Of a stretch of 21,557 nucleotides of DNA, positions 9,507 to 21,557 are shown piece after piece; the first letter of the stretch is position 1, and each line of letters opens with the position of its first letter. The DNA is taken from positions 1 through 21,557 of the IMG/VR virus record IMGVR_UViG_3300025892_000190. The stretch is one strand, 5' to 3'. Below the pieces are notes generated by a model, which did no database searches, was not told the origin of the DNA, and was given only the letters and a program-made list of their open reading frames with translations. The translations under genes were made by a program, and so were the position numbers. The DNA is from a virus.

Positions 9507-10397
9507 ATGGATATTAAAGACCTACTTAAAGAATCTACCCAAGATGCTCTTTCTGAAGAAAATCTTCAGAAATTACAAGAAGCTGTTGAAGATAAAGCTA
9601 AAGAGATCGCTAAGGGTGAATATGATCTCAAACTCGAAGCTGCTCTTGCGAAACAAGATGCTGAGTATGCTGAAAAATTAGAAACATTTTTAGAAGATAT
9701 TGATGAAGATCACACATCTAAAATGGAATCTCTTGTTGAGGGTATTAGTCAGAAACATTTTGGTATGTTAAACGACCTTATCAAAAAGTATAAAGCTGAT
9801 TACGTTACCGAGTGTACTTCTTTTAAAGATCAATTAGTTACTAAAATTGATAAATTCTTCGATATTGTTGTAGAAGAACAGATCCCTAAAGCTGAATTGA
9901 AAGAAGCTGTTGAAAATGTTCGCAGTAAAGTTGTTCTTGAAAAGATCGCTGAGATTATTGGTATTGATAAAATTCAACAAAATACTATCGTTAAAGAAGG
10001 TATTATTGAAGCTAAGACTGAAATTGACTCACTTCTAGAAGAAAATGAAAAACTTAAAGTTGAGCGTAAAAAATTAATAAGCGAAAAGGTTCGTGTAGAA
10101 CGTAAAGATCTTCTCTCTGAAAAAACAGTAGGTCTTCCAAAAGTTAAAAGACAATATATCAACAAAGTTCTAGGTAACAAATCTTTAGAGTTCATTAATG
10201 AAAACTTTGAATATACTCTAGCTCTCTTTGATTCAGAAGAAGGTGAAAGTAACGAAGTTCTTAAAGAACAAGCTACTAAACAAACGAAAACAATTTCCGA
10301 GAACATTGATCGTACAGAAAAGGTTGTAGAAGAGAGTGTTGAAGCTCCTCAAGCTAAACCTACTGATATGTACATGAATGAACTCTCAAGAATTTAA
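9507..10397 (+). CDS. 22: Prohead scaffold (core) protein gp22
   Basis: gp22 forms the inner core on which the head shell assembles and is later cut to peptides by gp21. This 296-residue protein (T4: 269) is highly charged and almost wholly helical, with long coiled-coil stretches rich in Glu and Lys (residues 15-100 and 165-205). It has the family's C-terminal helical region VGLPKVKRQYINKVLG followed by a flexible acidic tail ending PTDMYMNELSRI. Position between gp21 and gp23 is decisive. A near-late box TCTAAATA (9490-9497) lies nine bases before ATG, so it may have its own promoter besides that at 9346. An AT-rich 9-pair hairpin with CGGA loop follows the stop at 10398-10419. Confidence 0.93.
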   Translation: MDIKDLLKESTQDALSEENLQKLQEAVEDKAKEIAKGEYDLKLEAALAKQDAEYAEKLETFLEDIDEDHTSKMESLVEGISQKHFGMLNDLIKKYKADYVTECTSFKDQLVTKIDKFFDIVVEEQIPKAELKEAVENVRSKVVLEKIAEIIGIDKIQQNTIVKEGIIEAKTEIDSLLEENEKLKVERKKLISEKVRVERKDLLSEKTVGLPKVKRQYINKVLGNKSLEFINENFEYTLALFDSEEGESNEVLKEQATKQTKTISENIDRTEKVVEESVEAPQAKPTDMYMNELSRI

Positions 10398-10419
10398 TTA
10401 TTAAATCGGAATTTAATAA
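10398..10419 (+). other. Intergenic hairpin between gp22 and gp23
   Basis: TTATTAAAT (10398-10406) pairs with ATTTAATAA (10411-10419) around CGGA. No T-run follows, so it is not a standard terminator. It could stabilise or mark a processing point in the gp22-gp23 message, allowing more gp23 than gp22. The rest of the 127-base gap holds an 11-codon frame at 10433 and a purine-rich start region. Confidence 0.4.
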
Positions 10420-10506
10420 TATAATTTAAAACATGAGGCCACCGCCTGAGTATAGTAAAACAAGATAATAGTGAGAAAACACATAAAAATCGCAAATTAA
10501 CAAAAT

Positions 10507-10512
10507 AAAGGA
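10507..10512 (+). promoter_or_regulatory. Shine-Dalgarno-like purine stretch before gp23
   Basis: AAAGGA within AAAGGAAAAATAAATATTATG, 12 bases before the start codon. It is notable because most other genes in the window lack such a sequence; gp23 should be the most heavily made protein. Confidence 0.5.
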
Positions 10513-10524
10513 AAAATAAATATT

Positions 10525-11970
10525 ATGATTAAACCATCAAACTCTTATATCGATCAAGGACGTGCAGCAGCACTTCTTGAAAAGTGGAGTCCTGTACTTG
10601 ATTATAGTTCAGAAAAGGTAGCCCCTATTTCTGAATCTAATTTGCGTCTTAACACTGCTATCCTACTTGAGAACCAAGAAAATTGGTGTTCTCAAAATGG
10701 TGGACTCATCAACGAATCTTCTTCTGTTGGTGGCGGTGCTCTAGGTGCAAATGCTGGTGCTGGTCTCGGAACCAATTCTGCAACACAATTTAGTTCAGAT
10801 TCTTATGCAACAGGTGACGCACGTCTTCCAAAGGTACTTATTCCTATGATTCGTCGTACATTCCCTGAGCTTATCACTAACGAAATCGTAGGTGTTCAGC
10901 CAATGTCTGGTCCTGTTGGACTTGCATTCGCTCTTCGCTACAAATACGAATCTGATACTCTTGGTAGTGGTGACACTCGTGCATCTAACGTAAATGGTGC
11001 AGGTATCGACGGCGCTGAAGCTGGTTACAATAACCTTGACACTCGTTTCACTGGTACAAGCTCTGATGCTCTTACTGGTGACGCTGACGGTAACTTCCCA
11101 ATGGTTGGTGAAGACCAAGGTGTAGCTGATCTTCTTAAGAACTTCGAGCTTAATGACCAAATCCCACAAATGACTATCGGTTTCGAAAAGACTGCTGTGG
11201 AAGCTGGTACACGTAGACTCGCTGCTAAGTGGTCTGTTGAGCTTGAGCAAGACGTTCGCAACATGAACGGTATCGATATCGATAACGAAATGACAAATGC
11301 GATGTCTTACGAGATCCAAGCTGAAATCGACCGTGAAATGATCATGCGTATGATTCAAGTTACTCTTACTGCTGGTCGTGGTAAAGGTTATTCCATCTGG
11401 GAACCAGCATCTGCTGACGGTCGTTGGATGGGTGAGCGTAATCGCCACTTCTATCAAAAGATCCTTGTAGAAGCTAACCGTGTTGCTATCCGTAATCGTC
11501 GTGGTGCTGCTAACTTCATCGTTGCAACTCCATCAGTTTGTGCAATGCTTGAGTCTCTTCCTGAGTTCCAATTCATGCCTGTAACTGGTAACGTTAATAC
11601 ACAGCCTGTAGGTATCGCTAAACTTGGTACTCTTGCAAGTCGTTTCAACGTCTATCGTGATACTCGTACTGAAGCTCAATATGTCGCTGGTAGCCGTGCT
11701 TCTGGTATCGATTATGCTCTCCTTGGTTACAAGGGTCCAGAGTTCTTCGACACTGGTATCATCTACTGCCCATACATCCCTGTTATGGTACAGCGCACAA
11801 TCGATCCAGTACGTTTCAACCCAATCGTTGGTCTTATGACTCGTTACGGTGTGGTTGATCACCTATTCGGAGCTGATTTGTTCTATCACACAATCATCGT
11901 GAAGAACCTTGACGTAGCGTTCGCACCTGGCGAAACTTCAGTATTCATGACTGAAGACCACTACGTATAA
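10525..11970 (+). CDS. 23: Major capsid protein gp23
   Basis: gp23 forms the hexamers of the head shell. Family blocks are clear: LPKVLIPMIRRTFPELITNEIVGVQPM (about 99-125; T4 MGMVRRAIPNLIAFDICGVQPM), GLAFALRYKY (131-140), GFEKTAVEAGTRRLAAKWSVELEQDVR (218-244; T4 ...SRQLKAAYSIELAQDLR), and DYALLGYKGPEFFDTGIIYCPYIP in the C-terminal third. Length is 481 against 521 in T4, with a shorter insertion domain. A likely gp21 cut site is INE64|S, beside the T4 position (Glu65). The gene uses many C-ending codons (AAC, GAC, ATC, TTC), unlike its AT-rich neighbours, as expected for very high translation. It has a purine-rich start region and a strong terminator behind it. Confidence 0.97.
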   Translation: MIKPSNSYIDQGRAAALLEKWSPVLDYSSEKVAPISESNLRLNTAILLENQENWCSQNGGLINESSSVGGGALGANAGAGLGTNSATQFSSDSYATGDARLPKVLIPMIRRTFPELITNEIVGVQPMSGPVGLAFALRYKYESDTLGSGDTRASNVNGAGIDGAEAGYNNLDTRFTGTSSDALTGDADGNFPMVGEDQGVADLLKNFELNDQIPQMTIGFEKTAVEAGTRRLAAKWSVELEQDVRNMNGIDIDNEMTNAMSYEIQAEIDREMIMRMIQVTLTAGRGKGYSIWEPASADGRWMGERNRHFYQKILVEANRVAIRNRRGAANFIVATPSVCAMLESLPEFQFMPVTGNVNTQPVGIAKLGTLASRFNVYRDTRTEAQYVAGSRASGIDYALLGYKGPEFFDTGIIYCPYIPVMVQRTIDPVRFNPIVGLMTRYGVVDHLFGADLFYHTIIVKNLDVAFAPGETSVFMTEDHYV

Positions 11971-11993
11971 GTCGATTATATAAAATTAAATCT

Positions 11994-12023
11994 AAACCCC
12001 GTCGATTTCGACGGGGTTTTTTT
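11994..12023 (+). terminator. Strong Rho-independent terminator after gp23
   Basis: AAACCCCGTCGA (11994-12005) pairs with TCGACGGGGTTT (12008-12019), followed by seven T in all. It closes the head-gene transcript. Confidence 0.93.
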
Positions 12024-12035
12024 GTGATTTAAATA

Positions 12036-12064
12036 TTGACTATTATGTATAAATTATATAGATA
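12036..12064 (+). promoter_or_regulatory. Possible promoter for the homing endonuclease
   Basis: TTGACT (12036-12041) is followed 15 bases later by TATAGA or 17 bases later by TAGATA, neither a strong -10. A late-like TATAAATT (12048-12055) overlaps the spacer. Position just after a terminator favours some promoter here; which type cannot be settled. Confidence 0.4.
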
Positions 12065-12070
12065 GTTAAT

Positions 12071-13753
12071 ATGAGCCATAAAAAAACATTTGAAGATTAC
12101 ATTAAAGATTTTAATGTAATACATGATTCATATTATATATACCCTAAACATCAAATAATAGATGGGAATAGGAGTAAAATAAAAATAGATTGCCCTAAAC
12201 ATGGTGAATTCGTGCAGCAAATATCAGCGCACAAAAGTGGTCAAGGGTGCCCCAAATGTGCAAAAAATAAGACAGCTCAATCCAAAAAATTAAATACATC
12301 TATCTTTATAAAAGATGCTATAAATATACATGGTAATATATATGATTACACCGATTCAATATATATTGATAATAAAACTAAAGTTAGTATAATTTGCCCT
12401 GATCATGGTGTATTCTATCAAACTAGAAACAATCATATTATACAGAAACAGGGGTGTCCACAATGTGGTTTAAAGAAAAGAAAAAACCCTAAGACATTAA
12501 CAACATTACAATTTATCGAAAAATCTAAAACTATACATGCTGATCTATATGATTATACTAATGTAGACTATGTTAATTCGAAAACCCCTGTCAAATTGAT
12601 CTGTAAACATCACGGTGAGTTTAATATTATACCTTATAATCATTTAAGGGGTTCTGGGTGTAAACAATGTAAAGTTGAACAACAAAGATTTAAATTATCT
12701 AGAAAAACTGAATATGTAGGTCGGGTTAATTTAATACATAATGATAAATATAATTATCCGTTTTTTGATACTGAATATATTAACGTTGGGTCAAAACTCA
12801 CTATTATTTGTCCAAAACATGGTGAGTTTACTCAAATCGCTAAAGATCATTTACGTGGGTGTGGTTGCCCAAAGTGTAGCAACCAGATATCCAAGTATGA
12901 GGAATTTATTAAAGATTATTTAGAAAAAAATAATATAAAATACAAACAGGGTGATCGTGATTTAATAAAGCCGTATGAAATAGATTTTTTATTACCAGAA
13001 CATAATATCGCTATAGAAATTAATGGTGTATATTGGCATGGTGAGCAATCTGGTAAAGATAAATATTATCATAAAAATAAGACGGATATGTGTAAAGATC
13101 TTGGTTACAAACTGATTCATTTTTTTGAAGATGATTTACAAAAAGAAAGAATGGTTTTATCTAAACTCAATACATTACTTAAAATTAACAAAAAACCTAT
13201 ATACGCTAGAAAGTGTCAAGTAAAGGAGCTTGATACTAAAACTAAAGTTAAATTTTTAAATAAATACCACCTTCAAGGTAATTGTAAATCTAATGATGCG
13301 TTAGGTTTATATTATAAAAATAGATTAGTGTCCGTTATGACTTTTGGTAAAAATAGAGCTGGTGAAATCGAACTAAATAGATTTTGCTCTGTTTTTAATT
13401 TTTATATTATCGGTGGTGCGAGTAAAATATTTAAATTTTATTTTAGAAATTATAAACATGATTATATAGTGTCATACGCTGAATTAACTCTTAGTGATGG
13501 AGAAATGTACCATAATCTTGGGTTTAGTTTGGATAATACAAAAAGAAGCTCTGAACCAGATTATAAATATTATAATCGATCAAAATCTTCATATATAAGA
13601 CATCATAAATCGAAATTTACTAAGTCTAGATTAAAAGGTGAACTTGATAACTACAATCCTAATAAAACTGAGTGGGAGAATATGAGAGAAAATGGTTGGG
13701 ATAGGATTTGGGATTGTGGGAAACTTAGGTTCGTTTACAATAATATTGACTAA
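12071..13753 (+). CDS. Freestanding homing endonuclease, Vsr-like, with four zinc-finger repeats
   Basis: The N-terminal half holds four tandem units of about 65-70 residues. Each has a helical part with an IH...YxY motif and a treble-clef-like zinc site CxxH...CxxC: Cys41/His44/Cys60/Cys63, Cys109/His112/Cys129/Cys132, Cys178/His181/Cys197/Cys200, and Cys247/His250/Cys266/Cys269, the DUF723 type. Residues about 275-370 form a Vsr/PD-(D/E)xK-like nuclease: YEIDFLLPE (302-310), IAIEINGVYWHGE (313-325), KTDMC (337-341) and LIHFFEDD (348-355). The C-terminal part (378-560; DALGLYYKNRLVSVMTFGK, IIGGASKIFKFYFRNY, ENGWDRIWDCGKLRFVY) is the common extension of these mobile nucleases. It sits directly behind gp23, a favoured site for such genes. 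Activity and target site are inferred. Confidence 0.85.
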   Translation: MSHKKTFEDYIKDFNVIHDSYYIYPKHQIIDGNRSKIKIDCPKHGEFVQQISAHKSGQGCPKCAKNKTAQSKKLNTSIFIKDAINIHGNIYDYTDSIYIDNKTKVSIICPDHGVFYQTRNNHIIQKQGCPQCGLKKRKNPKTLTTLQFIEKSKTIHADLYDYTNVDYVNSKTPVKLICKHHGEFNIIPYNHLRGSGCKQCKVEQQRFKLSRKTEYVGRVNLIHNDKYNYPFFDTEYINVGSKLTIICPKHGEFTQIAKDHLRGCGCPKCSNQISKYEEFIKDYLEKNNIKYKQGDRDLIKPYEIDFLLPEHNIAIEINGVYWHGEQSGKDKYYHKNKTDMCKDLGYKLIHFFEDDLQKERMVLSKLNTLLKINKKPIYARKCQVKELDTKTKVKFLNKYHLQGNCKSNDALGLYYKNRLVSVMTFGKNRAGEIELNRFCSVFNFYIIGGASKIFKFYFRNYKHDYIVSYAELTLSDGEMYHNLGFSLDNTKRSSEPDYKYYNRSKSSYIRHHKSKFTKSRLKGELDNYNPNKTEWENMRENGWDRIWDCGKLRFVYNNID

Positions 13754-14782: not shown

Positions 14783-14986
14783 ATGGCTATCAAAAAAACT
14801 ACTAAAAAAACTACTAAAAAAACTACTAAAAAAGCTGTTAAAAAAACTACCAAAAAAGCTGTTAAAAAACCTGTAGAAGTTAAAGCAGAGAAACCTGTAG
14901 AAGTTAAAGCAGAGAAACCTGTAGAAGTTAAAAAAGATATTTCGTCTAATGAAAAACGTAGACGTAGATTACTTGGTTTTCAATAA
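14783..14986 (+). CDS. Lysine-rich histone H1/AlgP-like repeat protein
   Basis: The 67-residue protein is almost all repeats: KKTT units alternating with KKAV (residues 3-28), then three copies of KPVEVKAE-like units (29-51), then a basic end SSNEKRRRRLLGF. The DNA carries matching tandem repeats (ACTACTAAAAAA units and a 24-base unit), so copy number probably varies between relatives. Such Lys/Thr/Ala/Pro repeats are typical of histone-H1-like and AlgP-like DNA-binding tails. A late promoter box lies upstream, so it might compact phage DNA or be packaged with it; that is inference. Unlike most H1-like tails, the second half is balanced by Glu (VEVKAE), giving alternating charge. Confidence 0.72.
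   Translation: MAIKKTTKKTTKKTTKKAVKKTTKKAVKKPVEVKAEKPVEVKAEKPVEVKKDISSNEKRRRRLLGFQ
14797..14930 (+). repeat. Coding tandem repeats in the lysine-rich gene
   Basis: Units of 12 bases (ACTACTAAAAAA and variants) from about 14797 to 14866, then 24-base units (CCTGTAGAAGTTAAAGCAGA...) three times to about 14930. All keep the reading frame, so they are protein-level repeats rather than an independent element. Confidence 0.8.
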
Positions 14987-15193: not shown

Positions 15194-16174
15194 ATGAATA
15201 AAGTAAGAATTTTTGACGAGCAAGTTAGTCGCAAACCTGATCTATATCCTTGGACTGATCAATACATTAGAGCTATGTGGGAGGGACATTGGACTGATAA
15301 AGAGTTCAATTTTTCTTCTGATATCCAAGATTATAATGTTAAGTTGACTGAACAGGAGCGTGAGATTATAATCAGAACATTATCTGCTATTGGGCAAATT
15401 GAGATTGCTGTAAAAACATTTTGGGCTAAATTGGGTGACAATCTCCCCCACCCGTCGATTAGAGATATGGGTTATGTTATGGCTAACATCGAAGTTATCC
15501 ATAATAAAGCTTATGAGCGCCTAATCGATGTGTTAGGTTTAGAACATGTATTTGAAGATAATTTGAAACTCGATTGGATAGATGGTCGAGTTAGCTATCT
15601 TCGTAAATATACCCATCGATATTATAAAGATAGTAAAAAACAGTTTATTTACGCTTTAATCTTATTTACATTATTTGTTGAAAATGTGTCACTGTTTTCA
15701 CAATTTTATATTGTTAATTGGTTCGGTCGTAAGAATTTATTGAAAGACACTAATCAACAAACAGCTTATACTGCAAAAGAAGAAGATATTCATGCAAAAG
15801 TTGGTATCAAGTTAGTTAATGTTATTCGAGAAGAATATCCAGATTTATTTGATGATGATTTAGAGGAAAAGATTTTACATGAAGCAGGGGAAGCTTTTAA
15901 ATCCGAATCTCAAATTATCGATTGGATGATTAATGGTATTGATGATGATAAATTAAATGCGCCGCTGCTTAAAGAATTTGTTAAGAATCGTATCAATGAA
16001 TCTCTTGAGCAGATTGGGTATAAGAAACTATTTGAAGTAGACCAAGAGTTAGTTGAAAAAACTTTATGGTTTGATGAGGAAGTATTGGGTAATAGTGCTA
16101 CCGATTTTTTCCATAGCCGCCCCACTGAATATTCTAAATCTAATAAATCATTTGACGAAGACGATTTATTTTAA
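15194..16174 (+). CDS. nrdB: Class I ribonucleotide reductase small subunit NrdB
   Basis: NrdB makes the radical that NrdA uses to reduce ribonucleotides for DNA synthesis. The metal-site residues can be placed: Glu70 (GQIEIAVK), Glu100 and His103 (NIEVIHNKAY), Glu163 (LFVENVS), Glu197 and His200 (KEEDIH). Tyr107, four residues after His103, fits the radical tyrosine. Notably the first ligand is Glu, where E. coli NrdB has Asp84. The C-terminus TEYSKSNKSFDEDDLF gives a Tyr (313) in the radical-transfer position and an acidic NrdA-docking tail. Length 326 is slightly short for the family. The gene has a good sigma70-like promoter, no Shine-Dalgarno, and comes before nrdA, the reverse of T4 and E. 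coli. Confidence 0.95.
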   Translation: MNKVRIFDEQVSRKPDLYPWTDQYIRAMWEGHWTDKEFNFSSDIQDYNVKLTEQEREIIIRTLSAIGQIEIAVKTFWAKLGDNLPHPSIRDMGYVMANIEVIHNKAYERLIDVLGLEHVFEDNLKLDWIDGRVSYLRKYTHRYYKDSKKQFIYALILFTLFVENVSLFSQFYIVNWFGRKNLLKDTNQQTAYTAKEEDIHAKVGIKLVNVIREEYPDLFDDDLEEKILHEAGEAFKSESQIIDWMINGIDDDKLNAPLLKEFVKNRINESLEQIGYKKLFEVDQELVEKTLWFDEEVLGNSATDFFHSRPTEYSKSNKSFDEDDLF

Positions 16175-16276: not shown

Positions 16277-17920
16277 ATGAGTTACGAATGGTTAAACGAA
16301 GACTCTCGTGTATTTTTATCACGAGGATACTTAAAAGATGGACAAATTGCTGAAGATAGAATTACAGAAATTGCTAATAATGCTGAAAAAATTCTCGGCA
16401 TTGAAGGTTTTTCAGATAAATTTCAATCTTATGTGAGTAAGGGTTTTTATTCACTATCGACACCAGTTTGGACAAATTTTGGTAATGATCGTGGTTTACC
16501 AGTAAGTTGTTTCAACTCTCATGTCAGCGATACTATGCAATCTATCCTAGGTAAAACCGCTGAAGTTGGTATTATGTCTAAGATGGGTGGTGGAACATCT
16601 GGGTTCTTTGGTGATTTACGACCTAGAGGTTCATCTATAAGCGTTGGTGGGGAATCATCTGGTCCAGTTCATTTTATGGAACTATACGATAAGGTTGCTG
16701 ATGTCGTTTCCCAAGGGTCTGCTCGTCGTGGTAGCTTTGCTGCTTATATGCCAGTAGAGCACTCAGATATTGAAGAGTTTTTACGTATCCGTGAAGAAGG
16801 TCACCCTATTCAAAATATGAGTATTGGTGTGACAATTGGTGATGAATGGATGGAATCTATGGTCGCTGGTGATAAAGATAAACGTAAAATCTGGGGTAAG
16901 ATTATTAAAAAGCGTTTTGAAACTGGTTATCCATATATCATGTATAGTGATACTGTAAATAAAAACTCACCACAGGTTTATAAAGATAAGGGATATAAAA
17001 TCAATTCTTCAAATTTGTGTTCAGAAATTACACTTCAATCTAACGAAAACGAGTCTTTTGTATGTGTCCTTTGTTCACTCAATCTACTTCATTGGGATGA
17101 TATTGAAAATACAGACGCTGTTGAGACTTTGGTTTATTTTTTAGATGCGGTAAATGAGGAATTTGTTGAAAAGACTAAAGGTATTAAATTCATGGAAGCT
17201 CCTCATGAATTTGCAAAAAACCAACGAGCGTTAGGTATGGGGGTATTGGGTTGGCATTCTTATCTTCAATCGAATAATATCCCATTTGAAGGTCTCCATG
17301 CTCAGATGATTAATAACACAATATGGTCAACAATTCGTGATCGAGCTGATGATGCTACAAAAGAATTGGCTGAAAAATTAGGTGAACCAGAGCTCCTAAA
17401 GGGCTATGGGCGTCGCAATGTGACTACTTTGGCAGTTGCTCCAACAACATCTTCATCGTTTATTCTAGGGCAAGTATCCCCGTCTATCGAACCTTTAAAT
17501 AGCAATTACTTTGTAAAGAAGTTAGCTAAAGGTAATTTTACATACAAAAACCCATATTTAGTTAAATTATTAGAAAAGTATGATAAAAATACCAACCCTA
17601 TTTGGAAATCTATTCTAGTTAAAGGTGGTTCTGTACAACATTTAGAATTTTTAACTGATGATGAAAAGGATGTTTTCAAAACATTTGGTGAAATTTCTCA
17701 AAAAGATGTTATCGTACAAGCTGCTAATCGTCAGAAATATATTGATCAATCTCAATCACTTAACGTGATGATTCCACCAGAAACTAAACCAAAACAAGTT
17801 AGTGATTTATTAATTGAAGCTTGGGAAACTGGGGTAAAAACATTATATTACCAAAGAAGCGCTAACCCTGCGCAAGAATTATCTCGAAATATTATGAGTT
17901 GTTCGAGTTGTGAAGGATAA
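16277..17920 (+). CDS. nrdA: Class I ribonucleotide reductase large subunit NrdA, short form
   Basis: The catalytic subunit that reduces ribonucleoside diphosphates. All key residues are present: Cys78 (LPVSCFN) and Cys266 (CVLCSLNL) as the redox pair, Asn246-Cys248-Glu250 (NLCSE) as active site with the thiyl-radical Cys, the Tyr524-Tyr525 pair (TLYYQRSANPAQ) for radical transfer, and the C-terminal CSSC (Cys542, Cys545) that takes electrons from thioredoxin or glutaredoxin. At 547 residues it is far shorter than E. coli NrdA (761). The N-terminus starts directly with YEWLNEDSRVFLSRGYL, so the ATP-cone activity switch is absent; such an enzyme should not be shut off by dATP. It follows nrdB by 102 bases and is followed 11 bases later by the PduO-like gene. 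Confidence 0.96.
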   Translation: MSYEWLNEDSRVFLSRGYLKDGQIAEDRITEIANNAEKILGIEGFSDKFQSYVSKGFYSLSTPVWTNFGNDRGLPVSCFNSHVSDTMQSILGKTAEVGIMSKMGGGTSGFFGDLRPRGSSISVGGESSGPVHFMELYDKVADVVSQGSARRGSFAAYMPVEHSDIEEFLRIREEGHPIQNMSIGVTIGDEWMESMVAGDKDKRKIWGKIIKKRFETGYPYIMYSDTVNKNSPQVYKDKGYKINSSNLCSEITLQSNENESFVCVLCSLNLLHWDDIENTDAVETLVYFLDAVNEEFVEKTKGIKFMEAPHEFAKNQRALGMGVLGWHSYLQSNNIPFEGLHAQMINNTIWSTIRDRADDATKELAEKLGEPELLKGYGRRNVTTLAVAPTTSSSFILGQVSPSIEPLNSNYFVKKLAKGNFTYKNPYLVKLLEKYDKNTNPIWKSILVKGGSVQHLEFLTDDEKDVFKTFGEISQKDVIVQAANRQKYIDQSQSLNVMIPPETKPKQVSDLLIEAWETGVKTLYYQRSANPAQELSRNIMSCSSCEG

Positions 17921-17931: not shown

Positions 17932-18480
17932 ATGAGTGAATTACCTATAATCGATTTAAAAAACGGTCTTTATACTAAAGATATTTCAAATGCAATGGTT
18001 GATTTTGAAAAAAATCACCCTGTTAATAGGTGTGTATCCGAATTAGATTTACTTGATTCGGTTATAGGTATGTCATTTAAATATGTTGATGAATATGAAG
18101 GTATTCAAGATGTATTATTAAAAATTCAAGATAGAATGGTCTATCTTAGAGCTGAAATATTAACTCACCCTCGTAATTGGGGTGAGTTTTGTCAAAAAAA
18201 TAAATGTATCTCTATAGGAGATATTCAATATTTAGATAAATTGTGTGTGGATATTAATAAATCCATTAAAGATGATGGTCAAATTATAGGTAATTATGGT
18301 TCAAATGGTGAATCATCAGCCTATTTTGATTACGCTGAATGTGTATGTAAAAAATTTGAGATAGTTTTACATGATTTAAATGATAATATTCACAGTACTT
18401 CAATATCACCATATATATTTGAATATATAAATAAACTTGGATATTATCTATATCTAATAGCTAGATATTTAAAAGGGTAA
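17932..18480 (+). CDS. Cobalamin adenosyltransferase-like protein (PduO fold), divergent
   Basis: PduO-type enzymes transfer adenosyl from ATP to cob(I)alamin. The 182-residue protein matches the family's five-helix pattern: SELDLLDSVIGMS (36-48; family VDELNSxIGLA), LLKIQDRMVYLRAEIL (62-77; LxxIQxxLFxLGAxLA), IQYLDKLCVDIN (98-109), SSAYFDYAECVCKKFE (128-143; AAAxLHLARTVCRRAER) and YIFEYINKLGYYLYLIARYL (161-180; VLxYLNRLSDYLFVLARYxN). Asp39 matches the Asp that forms the salt bridge with the family Arg, here Lys140 or Lys141. The N-terminal ATP-binding motif TKTGDxGxT is missing; only LYTKDISN is left. It may thus bind cobalamin or nucleotide without catalysis. It follows nrdA by 11 bases and precedes a PQ-loop gene by 1 base. 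Confidence 0.66.
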   Translation: MSELPIIDLKNGLYTKDISNAMVDFEKNHPVNRCVSELDLLDSVIGMSFKYVDEYEGIQDVLLKIQDRMVYLRAEILTHPRNWGEFCQKNKCISIGDIQYLDKLCVDINKSIKDDGQIIGNYGSNGESSAYFDYAECVCKKFEIVLHDLNDNIHSTSISPYIFEYINKLGYYLYLIARYLKG

Positions 18481-18481
18481 T

Positions 18482-18745
18482 ATGGAAATATTTGGAATAA
18501 TATATTCAGTTAGTTTTATTATTTGTTACATACCTCAAATAATAAAACTGCTACAAACTAAAAAATCTGGGGATATATCGATAATATTGTTTGTATTATC
18601 GATATTTGGTTACATATCAGCTCTAATATATGTTCTATCTGTAATTGGTAATGATATTATACTCATAATAAATTATTCCGTATGTCTTATTTTCTGTATA
18701 ATAATAACATTTTTAACATTAAAATATCGAAAATGTTATAAATAA
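18482..18745 (+). CDS. PQ-loop (SemiSWEET-like) three-helix membrane protein
   Basis: The 87-residue protein has three membrane helices at about residues 3-22, 32-53 and 58-80. The first ends in the PQ-loop signature CYIPQIIKLLQTKKSGDIS (15-33), in which Pro18-Gln19 and the Lys/Lys-Ser-x-x-(I/V)-S pattern are typical of SemiSWEET and related PQ-loop proteins. Helix 3 has the often conserved Asn (NYSV, Asn64). Bacterial SemiSWEETs form dimers that carry small solutes, often sugars; the substrate here cannot be read. The ATG lies one base after the stop of the PduO-like gene, whose last codons supply AAGGG as a start signal, so the two proteins are probably made together. The next late box overlaps its stop codon. 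Confidence 0.78.
   Translation: MEIFGIIYSVSFIICYIPQIIKLLQTKKSGDISIILFVLSIFGYISALIYVLSVIGNDIILIINYSVCLIFCIIITFLTLKYRKCYK
18737..18744 (+). promoter_or_regulatory. T4-type late promoter box
   Basis: Exact TATAAATA overlapping the end of the PQ-loop gene and continuing as ATTAAAAA. It lies 29 bases before the start at 18774 and should drive the small virion-like gene and the long adhesin. Confidence 0.75.
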
Positions 18746-18773: not shown

Positions 18774-19223
18774 ATGCTTTCAGTTAACAGCCAACAAATT
18801 TTCAATATTTCTCAAGCCGAAGATGGTAAATTTATAAAATTAGATACAACTAATATGCCAGAATTATCTGGATTTCCACAAGGTGCTTATGCGTTATTAA
18901 CCGTTCCTGTGAGTGAATTAGATGGTAGTAGTGATAATCGATACCAAGATGTTCCGTTTTCTACACAAATAACAACAACATCGTCATCTAGTTCGCAAAT
19001 AACAACAAGTCAATATAAAGGTTGGTTAACAATAAGTATCGATCCAGATACAACAGATATTGTATATGTTGGTTCAAGTGATGTTACAAGTACCGTAGGT
19101 TATAAATTAAGTGGTTTGTTACCATCTATAACTGTATCTAGTGATGAATTAAGTAAATGGTATGTTATAGGTTTAACTGGTGGTGAAACTGTTTACGTCT
19201 GCGGTGCTTATATAGAACAATAA
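18774..19223 (+). CDS. Putative virion protein upstream of the adhesin
   Basis: The 149-residue protein is not recognised. It is Ser/Thr-rich with few Lys or Arg and looks all-beta: GFPQGAYALLTVPVSELDG (34-52), a low-complexity linker TTTSSSSSQITTS (67-79), then WLTISIDPDTTDIVYVG and a final WYVIGLTGGETVYVCGAYIEQ. This composition is common in phage tail-fibre and head-decoration proteins. It is led by an exact late promoter box and its stop is one base from the start of the long adhesin-like gene, so the two are probably expressed together. It could be a fibre partner, chaperone or decoration protein; the sequence does not decide. Confidence 0.6.
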   Translation: MLSVNSQQIFNISQAEDGKFIKLDTTNMPELSGFPQGAYALLTVPVSELDGSSDNRYQDVPFSTQITTTSSSSSQITTSQYKGWLTISIDPDTTDIVYVGSSDVTSTVGYKLSGLLPSITVSSDELSKWYVIGLTGGETVYVCGAYIEQ

Positions 19224-19224
19224 A

Positions 19225-21557
19225 ATGTTCAATAATTTTCCATATTATAATGTTAAATCAGTTAGGTTAGGTTCCCACTATATTACTAGTGGTATTGACC
19301 CAACATATACATTATCTGGACCTTTAACTGTAAATGAAGGTGAGTCTGTTACCATAGTATTAACAACAACTGATGTTGATAGTGGTGAAGTAATCCCTTA
19401 TGTAATTACTGGTATAACAACTGATGATATAAATGGATCTTCTCTAAATGGAGAGTTTGTTATAGGTTCAGTTGATTCTATAGCTTTAGATATAACTGGG
19501 GACATTGAGTTAGAAGGTGATGAAACTCTTGTTTTAACATTAGCTAATGGTGAAGATTCTATTTCAATAAATATTAGTGATGGTATATTAACACAAATAG
19601 GACAAGATATATTAAGTTTAGATGCTGGTGAAAATGATTTCTACGGTCTTAGTGTAGCAATAAATTATGATGGTAGTGTTGTTGCTACTAGTGGACCTTT
19701 TAGTGATTCAGTTGGTAACAGAAGTGGTCGCACTAGAGTATATGAAATTGATGGTGATATTTGGACTCAGCTAGGTCAAGATATTGATGGTGAAGCCGAA
19801 ATTGAATATAGTGGTAATAAAATTGATATTAGTGATGATGGTACTATCATCGCTGTTAGTAGTCATCTAAGTAATGTAAATGAATTAGAAAAACCAGGTC
19901 GTGTTAGAATTTTTAGGCTTGTTAATAACACATGGGTGCAGATTGGTGCTGATATTGTTGGTGAATCACAAGATGATAGAAGTGGTATTAGTTTAAGTTT
20001 AAATTCTGATGGTAAAATGATTGCTATCTCTGCACCATATAACGATGCTGGTAGCGCAAATATAAATCACAACTATGGGCATGTAAGAGTTTATAGGAAT
20101 ATAGATGATAATTGGGTTCAATTAGGTCAGGATATTGATGGTGAGAATATTGGTGATCTATTAGGTTGGTCTGTATCGATAAATGGTGGTGGCACTATTG
20201 TTGCAATTGGTACACGTACCGATGATACATCGTTTACAAATGCTGGACAAGTTAGAATTTATCAAATTGTTGGTAACACTTGGGTTCAATTAGGACAATA
20301 TATTAGTGGTGAAAATTTTGCTGATAATAGTGGACACAGTGTTAGTTTAAATGGTGATGGTACTATCGTTGCGATTGGTGCTCACCTTAATGATGATGGT
20401 GGTACACATTCTGGTCATGTAAAAGTATACCAACTCGATGGTGAAAATTGGATTCAACTTGGATCTAATATAGTCGGTAAATCTGCTGGTGATTTAAGTG
20501 GAAGTAGTGTTAGCTTAAATGATGTTGGAGATATTATTGTAATTGGATCACCTAAAAATGATGATGGTGGTAATGATTCTGGACACACTAGGGTATTTAC
20601 ATATGATGGTAATGAATGGGATCAAGTTGGATTAGATGTTAGAGGTACATCGGATGGAGACTTTAGTGGTGGTAGTATAGATTTTAGTTCAGATGGAACT
20701 ACATTCGTTGTTGGTGAGTATAAAAATGATGATGTCGCCACAAATGCTGGTCGCACTAGAGTATTTAAAATTAAGCAAGAATCCCCAGTTGTGGTACCAA
20801 CTTATAGTTTAAACTCTACGTTACCAACAGTTGATGAAGGGCAGCAACTTACTGTATCATTAACCACTCAAAATGTAGAACATGGTACAAACATCAATTA
20901 TACTATAATTGGTATATCAAGTGATGATATCGATGGGTCACCGTTAGTCGGTAGTTTTGTTGTGGGTGTTGTAGATTCAGTTACATTAAATGTAGTTGAT
21001 GACTTATTAGTTGAGGGTATTGAAACACTTTCATTCATTCTTGATAATGGTGGAGATTCCATTGATATAGTAATAAACGATACAATATTACCTTATTACG
21101 AATTACTTACTTCATATTCAGTTAATGAGGGTGAAACGATTCTTATATCGTTATTAACAGAAAATGTTAATAATGGTACACTCGTTCCTTATACTATAAC
21201 TGGTGTAACAAGTGATGATATTGATGGAGCGCCATTAACTGGTAACTTTGTTGTAGGAACAGTTGATTTAATTTATATTAATGTAACAGAAGATGTTTTA
21301 ACTGAAGGTGAAGAAACTCTAACTATTACATTAGATAATGGTGAACATAGTGTCGATGTTATAATAAATGACTCATCACAAGATCCAACATACGAATTAC
21401 TTGCTCCAATTGCAGTTAATGAGGGTGAAACAATTCTTATTGAGTTAATAACAACTAATCTCAATGTGGGTGCATCAGTTCCTTATACTATAACTGGTGT
21501 AACAAGTGATGATATCGATGGAGCATCATTAACAGGTAACTTTGTTGTAGGAACAGT
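19225..21557 (+). CDS. Long adhesin/fibre-like protein: Calx-beta repeats and seven-bladed propeller, 3' end outside window
   Basis: An open frame of at least 777 codons runs off the window. Residues 25-120 are a Calx-beta-like unit (PTYTLSGPLTVNEGES ... LEGDETLVLTL). Residues 121-518 hold seven repeats of about 56-60 residues, each starting (W)xQLGxDIxGE and ending GxxRVYxx, with SLSxDGxxIAIGA and DDGGxxSGH in between: an FG-GAP/integrin-alpha-like propeller with one blade per repeat. Three more Calx-beta units follow from about 525, 623 and 721, spaced about 98 residues, each with VNEGE and EGxETLxxxL. Asp/Asn-rich loops suggest calcium binding. Such proteins bind surface glycans or proteins; a receptor-binding fibre is the likely role. 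The start is the ATG one base after the previous stop. No signal peptide is seen. Confidence 0.85.
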   Translation, partial: MFNNFPYYNVKSVRLGSHYITSGIDPTYTLSGPLTVNEGESVTIVLTTTDVDSGEVIPYVITGITTDDINGSSLNGEFVIGSVDSIALDITGDIELEGDETLVLTLANGEDSISINISDGILTQIGQDILSLDAGENDFYGLSVAINYDGSVVATSGPFSDSVGNRSGRTRVYEIDGDIWTQLGQDIDGEAEIEYSGNKIDISDDGTIIAVSSHLSNVNELEKPGRVRIFRLVNNTWVQIGADIVGESQDDRSGISLSLNSDGKMIAISAPYNDAGSANINHNYGHVRVYRNIDDNWVQLGQDIDGENIGDLLGWSVSINGGGTIVAIGTRTDDTSFTNAGQVRIYQIVGNTWVQLGQYISGENFADNSGHSVSLNGDGTIVAIGAHLNDDGGTHSGHVKVYQLDGENWIQLGSNIVGKSAGDLSGSSVSLNDVGDIIVIGSPKNDDGGNDSGHTRVFTYDGNEWDQVGLDVRGTSDGDFSGGSIDFSSDGTTFVVGEYKNDDVATNAGRTRVFKIKQESPVVVPTYSLNSTLPTVDEGQQLTVSLTTQNVEHGTNINYTIIGISSDDIDGSPLVGSFVVGVVDSVTLNVVDDLLVEGIETLSFILDNGGDSIDIVINDTILPYYELLTSYSVNEGETILISLLTENVNNGTLVPYTITGVTSDDIDGAPLTGNFVVGTVDLIYINVTEDVLTEGEETLTITLDNGEHSVDVIINDSSQDPTYELLAPIAVNEGETILIELITTNLNVGASVPYTITGVTSDDIDGASLTGNFVVGT
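21091..21557 (+). repeat. 294-base tandem coding repeats (Calx-beta units)
   Basis: The stretch from 21187 and the one from 21481 are nearly identical at base level (CCTTATACTATAACTGGTGT onwards), exactly 294 bases (98 codons) apart. The earlier unit around 20890 is more diverged. The high identity points to recent duplication or gene conversion; further copies probably lie beyond the window. Confidence 0.85.

Follow-up and report, generated by a model that had tools for sequence, protein, structure and literature searches.

The window, by which we mean the whole stretch of 21,557 nucleotides of viral DNA analysed here, carries a gene for a small membrane protein directly behind a gene resembling those for PduO-type ATP:cob(I)alamin adenosyltransferases (ATRs), and upstream of both lie the genes of a ribonucleotide reductase (RNR). 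The features needed for the discussion are the following:

10525 to 11970, plus strand: major capsid-like protein, used as a vertical marker (81% to the phage contig L201, about 56-64% to phages with nrdAB).
14783 to 14986, plus strand: Lys-rich reading frame ending in EKRRRRLLGFQ, a weak synteny anchor (L201 has a reading frame with a comparable end ahead of its class II RNR).
15194 to 16174, plus strand: nrdB, radical subunit of a class I RNR (PF00268, E 3.9e-49; best PDB matches 6sf4 and 5olk).
16277 to 17920, plus strand: nrdA, catalytic subunit of a class I RNR, NrdE-prime equivalog without ATP cone (TIGR02510, 759 bits with a cut-off of 602; PDB 6dqx).
17932 to 18480, plus strand: decayed PduO-type ATR-like protein of 182 amino acids, ATP-loop motif lost (PF01923, E 1.5e-15; active-site table; tree).
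18471 to 18484, plus strand: junction AAAAGGGTAATATG, with a purine-rich Shine-Dalgarno-like stretch, the stop TAA, a gap of one nucleotide and ATG.
18482 to 18745, plus strand: PQ-loop membrane protein of SemiSWEET fold, 87 amino acids, ATG start (PF04193, E 2.5e-9; AlphaFold2 mean pLDDT 88.8; TM 0.82-0.88; alignment of 42 sequences).
18774 to 19223, plus strand: protein of 149 amino acids downstream of the PQ-loop gene, a synteny anchor (33% identity, E 3.7e-25, to the gene directly after the intact ATR of L201).

The gene at 10525-11970 is presumed from its position to code for the capsid protein. Near it lies 12071-13753, which is conserved in L201, contains zinc-finger repeats (DUF4379, DUF723) and a weak match to DUF559, and possibly codes for a homing endonuclease. 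The reading frame 19225-21557 is cut by the end of the window; its very long, repetitive product contains FG-GAP repeats and also repeated segments that we take to be Calx-beta-like, and is probably a fibre or an adhesin.

The product of 18482-18745 has CYIPQ at residues 15-19 and TKKSGDIS at residues 26-33, motifs which, together with three helices, had led an earlier note on this DNA to see in it a phage-encoded SemiSWEET/PQ-loop protein. This holds. The Pfam PQ-loop family matches with 37.2 bits (gathering cut-off 22), solved SemiSWEET sequences match with E 2.9e-6, and the AlphaFold2 model, for which 42 phage sequences were the input alignment, has helices at residues 2-26, 34-55 and 59-84. 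The best solved structural matches of the model are SemiSWEETs, with TM scores of 0.82-0.88 (to 4rng and 4qnc) and Z scores of 12-13 (12.9 to 4rng). Compared with a sister virus the gene has an omega of 0.08 (95% interval 0.03-0.18), that is purifying selection. It is a genuine PQ-loop gene with a SemiSWEET-like fold and not a chance similarity. A holin identity was considered and rejected because the SemiSWEET match is too strong.

Although SemiSWEET-like in fold, the protein is outside the curated sugar-transporter subfamily, its score with the NF037968 model being 34.8 bits where the cut-off is 80. Trp48 and Asn64 belong to the binding pocket of SemiSWEETs (PMC5972207); in the window protein the equivalent of the sugar-stacking Trp48 is Ala, and that of Asn64 is kept. 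Sugar could still be transported despite the loss of the Trp, because the W50A mutant of the E. coli SemiSWEET still transports sucrose, with raised uptake (PMC4309421). If it behaves as the SemiSWEETs of known structure do, the three-helix protein would form dimers in the inner membrane of the host and mediate passive transport of a small solute.

Relatives of the protein are encoded on 54 viral contigs with varied neighbour genes, and a search of plasmids for relatives gave no match. P18 and Q19 are invariant in the 42 aligned phage sequences, which all have Gly (40 of 42) or Ala at the position of Trp48; the equivalent of Asn64 is present in 42/42 and that of Asp32 in 39/42, and the equivalents of Ser34 and Tyr51 are kept across the phage members. 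Taken alone, the PQ-loop protein is nothing unusual among proteins of this known fold; its gene belongs to a family present in many large phages and probably has an accessory role in nutrient or nucleotide economy. Some further observations on gene context can be mentioned. In 16 phage loci (among them L009, L012, L018, L022, L025, L033, L036 and L042) the PQ-loop gene is followed, directly or after one further gene, by that of a small HAD-like phosphatase; the Pfam matches of these phosphatases are weak, one of them to 5'-nucleotidase. In Geobacillus phage GR1 (L146, 3507-4267) the PQ-loop gene shares bases with the gene of a nucleoside 2-deoxyribosyltransferase, and nrdA is near, hinting at a nucleoside-related substrate. 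A class II RNR is close by in 3 of the 54 PQ-loop loci (L036, L042 and L043), and no ATR was found on these three contigs.

For the preceding gene, 17932-18480, the earlier note had suggested a corrinoid-type, PduO-like protein. The homology stands, but the ATP-loop motif and the key active-site arginines of such an enzyme are gone. Pfam Cob_adeno_trans (PF01923) matches residues 25-180 with 58.1 bits (cut-off 24) and the match covers profile positions 19-171 only; the best Foldseek matches of the structural model, itself of low confidence (pLDDT 55.8), are ATRs, with Z scores up to 13.3. With the TIGR00636 PduO_Nterm equivalog the score is 34.9 bits and the cut-off 108.45, which leaves the protein outside the equivalog. 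Aligned with bacterial ATRs it has YTKDISNAMVD, and a gap of about 6 amino acids, in place of the ATP loop TKTGDxGTT; all other ATRs of the active-site table keep the loop in essence. In human numbering, which for Arg186 and Arg191 is our own assignment, Arg186 is replaced by Glu, and Arg190 (Lys140 here) and Arg191 by Lys. The Pro-Gly-Gly turn is altered, NRLSD has become NKLGY, and the equivalent of Glu193 is retained as E143; Arg190 and Glu193 are active-site residues of the human enzyme (PMC8633584). It should be kept in mind that not every one of these changes is diagnostic, because several phage ATRs associated with class II RNRs also lack the equivalent of Arg186. Scans with the ATR-like protein alone or with its A2 alignment gave no match beyond the sister virus; the sole match in a bacterial genome (L141) is false and contains no ATR reading frame.

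The omega of the ATR-like gene, compared with the sister virus, is 0.37 (95% interval 0.23-0.59), the highest of seven genes compared in the region, the other six being between 0.04 and 0.21. With this value the gene is not a plain pseudogene; it is relaxed yet still constrained, which means either incomplete decay or a remaining non-catalytic role. Alternatively, the protein could be a pseudoenzyme that now serves another purpose, such as the binding of a nucleotide or of the subunits of the class I RNR, and is retained for it. The constraint agrees with this, as do the reading frame intact in two viruses at a synonymous divergence near 0.5-1 and the retained Glu193 equivalent and fold core, but the gene is still the least constrained of the seven, its stem branch in the tree is long, and no feature indicates a particular partner. 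We regard such a repurposing as possible, with the chances somewhat against it.

Class I RNRs do not use B12, and a B12 need of the RNR in the window was therefore rejected. No class II RNR gene was seen in the window, which as a fragment covers 21.6 kb, and one may lie elsewhere in the genome of the virus. NrdA, of 547 amino acids, belongs to the NrdE-prime equivalog by its score, and since it has no ATP cone the enzyme probably has no shut-off by dATP. Its best PDB match, 6dqx, is a class Id NrdA (PMC8350387).

The earlier note had correctly placed the PduO-like gene beside the RNR genes (nrdB-nrdA upstream) and the PQ-loop start one base after the PduO-like stop (TAA-T-ATG), and had gone on to propose that both proteins are made in a fixed ratio and that the transporter and the corrinoid-type protein suggest a metabolic module. 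In the contig of the sister virus there is no gap here, the stop and the start codon having one base in common. A special meaning of the spacing was rejected: the window has 23 gene junctions, of which 5 span 5 nucleotides or less, and the junction 19223/19225 has an identical gap of one nucleotide, which leaves the fixed ratio unsupported. The note had also named conserved adjacency in related phages as the check to make, and lack of co-occurrence in relatives as what would refute the idea; it is this lack that was found. Apart from the window, the pair was seen in a single sister virus, represented by two near-duplicate contigs. An ATR gene was present on none of 48 other phage contigs with a PQ-loop gene and on none of 48 contigs with relatives of nrdA. 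A PQ-loop gene was found in just two of these 48 nrdA relatives, near-identical contigs (L150, 86% in NrdA, the closest relative by this protein other than the sister virus) in which it lies about 6 kb from nrdA, among other neighbours and without an ATR. In the other direction, no PQ-loop gene was found on 9 contigs with ATRs or around the ATRs in the neighbourhoods of further contigs. Many of the surveyed records are fragments, and absence is judged over the whole set and not contig by contig.

A PQ-loop protein that transports a compound on which the PduO-like protein acts, the two being co-translated to serve the RNR, would agree with the tight spacing or overlap in both viruses and with the purifying selection on both reading frames. 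It is nevertheless very improbable, as the two genes do not occur together beyond the lineage of the window, the ATP loop is lost, the RNR is of class I, and in L150 the PQ-loop gene sits elsewhere without an ATR. The best reading is that the adjacency is a lineage-specific juxtaposition and not a B12 transport module. What survives of the proposed module is that the PduO-like gene does have a tie to RNR, a historical one, because the intact phage relatives adjoin B12-dependent class II RNRs.

These relatives were obtained by a scan with a mixed alignment, which gave phage ATRs with an intact ATP loop, several of them adjoining a large RNR gene. The RNRs near phage ATRs match the adenosylcobalamin-dependent RTPR family at 1e-40 to 1e-60, which does not reach the curated cut-off. 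On a 135-kb phage contig (L182, 2950-5567) the stop of the class II RNR gene, which has a clear B12 insertion domain (5.6e-15), overlaps the ATR start by one base (TAATG); this is likely an operon of a B12-dependent RNR and its ATR. The class II RNR in L157 (92-3400) bears an intein-like insertion. INPHARED records named as Listeria, Enterococcus or Salmonella phages (OR847639, OR849169 and others) hold bacterial-like ATRs; they were not counted as phage ATRs because they are mostly short, unannotated and host-fragment-like, and are likely host contamination.

In the tree the ATR-like proteins of the window and L002 are sister to the ATR of L170/L153 (support 100/99), and together these group with ten phage ATRs that have a YG motif and are associated with class II RNRs (support 100/97). 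The stem of the window and L002 is 2.96 changes per column compared with 0.21 for L170, that is 14-fold longer. A class II RNR lies within 5 kb of every one of the 8 clade ATRs whose flanks are long enough to tell (some of these ATRs are nearly identical to each other), compared with 3 of the 54 PQ-loop loci. The link to class II is strong only in this clade, because the ATRs without the YG motif, over half of all, mostly have none within this distance. L153 and L170 are contained in L201, a phage contig of 14.9 kb which is collinear with the window: the scaffold-like protein is 55% identical, the capsid 81%, the product of the 12071 gene 39%, the ATR 34% and the 149-residue protein 33%. L201 has in order the Lys-rich reading frame with the shared end, a class II RNR, an ATR with intact ATP motif and the homologue of 18774-19223, and no PQ-loop gene. 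Its class II RNR, at 9934-12258, stands where the window has nrdB-nrdA; it matches TIGR02505 with 1e-46, which is below the NCBIfam cut-off, and its sole PDB match is the L. leichmannii RTPR (1l1l).

ATR homology, synteny, motif loss and an accelerated branch are observed for 17932-18480, and we consider it probable that the two adjacent genes have separate histories, one being a half-transporter of SemiSWEET fold and the other an ATR orphaned and decaying after an exchange of RNR class, brought together in this lineage only. The gene 17932-18480 would descend from a phage PduO-type ATR next to a class II RNR, where it presumably charged the cofactor of that enzyme, adenosylcobalamin. We infer that the class II RNR came first in the lineage of the window and was then replaced by the class I nrdB-nrdA; catalysis by the ATR would have been lost, and the gene, now orphaned, would be decaying or be kept for a non-catalytic role. 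RNR class has previously been described to differ between sister phage groups in the sioviruses (PMC6775973).

The direction of the exchange has to be considered separately. In NrdB the window is 91% and in NrdA 86% identical to a 113-kb phage contig (G051), which besides these shares only the PQ-loop gene with it. The nrdAB genes and the structural genes differ in their nearest relatives, because NrdB and NrdA are nearest to G051 and the capsid and scaffold proteins to L201. This comparison of sequences favours an arrival of nrdAB in the window lineage, and the PQ-loop gene perhaps came from the same source; the argument is weakened because G051 may be without its structural region. More distant capsid relatives (L118 and L071, about 56-64%) also have nrdAB, separated from the gene for the capsid by a few kb. 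Therefore nrdAB could be ancestral and the class II RNR a newcomer in L201, and in that case some ancestor held both RNRs. In such a reversed history the L201 lineage gained the class II RNR together with the ATR, and the window obtained its ATR through the ancestor with two RNRs or by recombination. We find this order of events unlikely: it fits the nrdAB of the capsid relatives, but it requires either the ancestor with two RNRs or that the ATR was transferred independently to the very same place, and the nrdAB of the window is closest to a contig without detectable structural homology. Replacement of class II by class I is the direction we prefer.

RNR class serves to indicate host and niche in marine phages, and phages with class II enzymes are usually assumed to depend on B12 from the host (e.g., PMC6775973). 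Where phages have an ATR next to a class II RNR, this would imply that some of them produce the active cofactor themselves out of a B12 precursor. A decayed ATR adjoining class I genes would be a legible record of one phage lineage having exchanged its RNR class. Four papers on phage RNRs (PMC10547690, PMC6370689, PMC12918982 and PMC6775973) mention no adenosyltransferase, and a full-text search in an incomplete literature collection gave nothing on phage ATRs, as judged by title and abstract. A wider proposal, which we put forward tentatively and consider rather doubtful, is that some tailed phages bring their own PduO-type ATR along with a B12-dependent RNR, that lineages exchange the RNR in place between B12-dependent and B12-independent classes, and that the stranded ATR fold of the window is kept for a new non-catalytic role beside the class I RNR. 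The parts worth following are the pairing of phage ATR and class II RNR and its apparent break-up.

Compared with the bacterial SemiSWEETs (4qnc, 4rng, 4x5m, 9kax; NF037968), the PQ-loop protein has in common the three helices, the PQ in TM1, the gate residues Asp32 and Ser34 and the equivalents of Tyr51 and Asn64, and differs by having Ala for Trp48, Phe for Thr13 and Val for Gly52. The PQ-loop proteins of phages and giant viruses (phrog_25992; BFVD A0A6J7X7D0 and A0A8S5P1N9), which databases already label as PQ-loop or SemiSWEET, have the same fold and size; the window copy differs in a loop insert of one amino acid, the lack of WWF in TM3 and the ATR-like gene upstream. With the PduO-type ATRs (TIGR00636; human MMAB, L. 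reuteri PduO) the ATR-like protein shares PF01923 and the Glu193 equivalent, and its low-confidence model has ATRs as best Foldseek matches, but the TGDxGTT loop and the key arginines are missing. The nearest known arrangement is that of the phage loci with an ATR and a class II RNR (L153/L201, L154, L157, L182), which have in common with the window the ATR clade (except L182) and the place close to RNR, and in L201 also the gene following the ATR; these loci keep the ATP motif and the B12-dependent RNR, whereas the window has the class I nrdB-nrdA.
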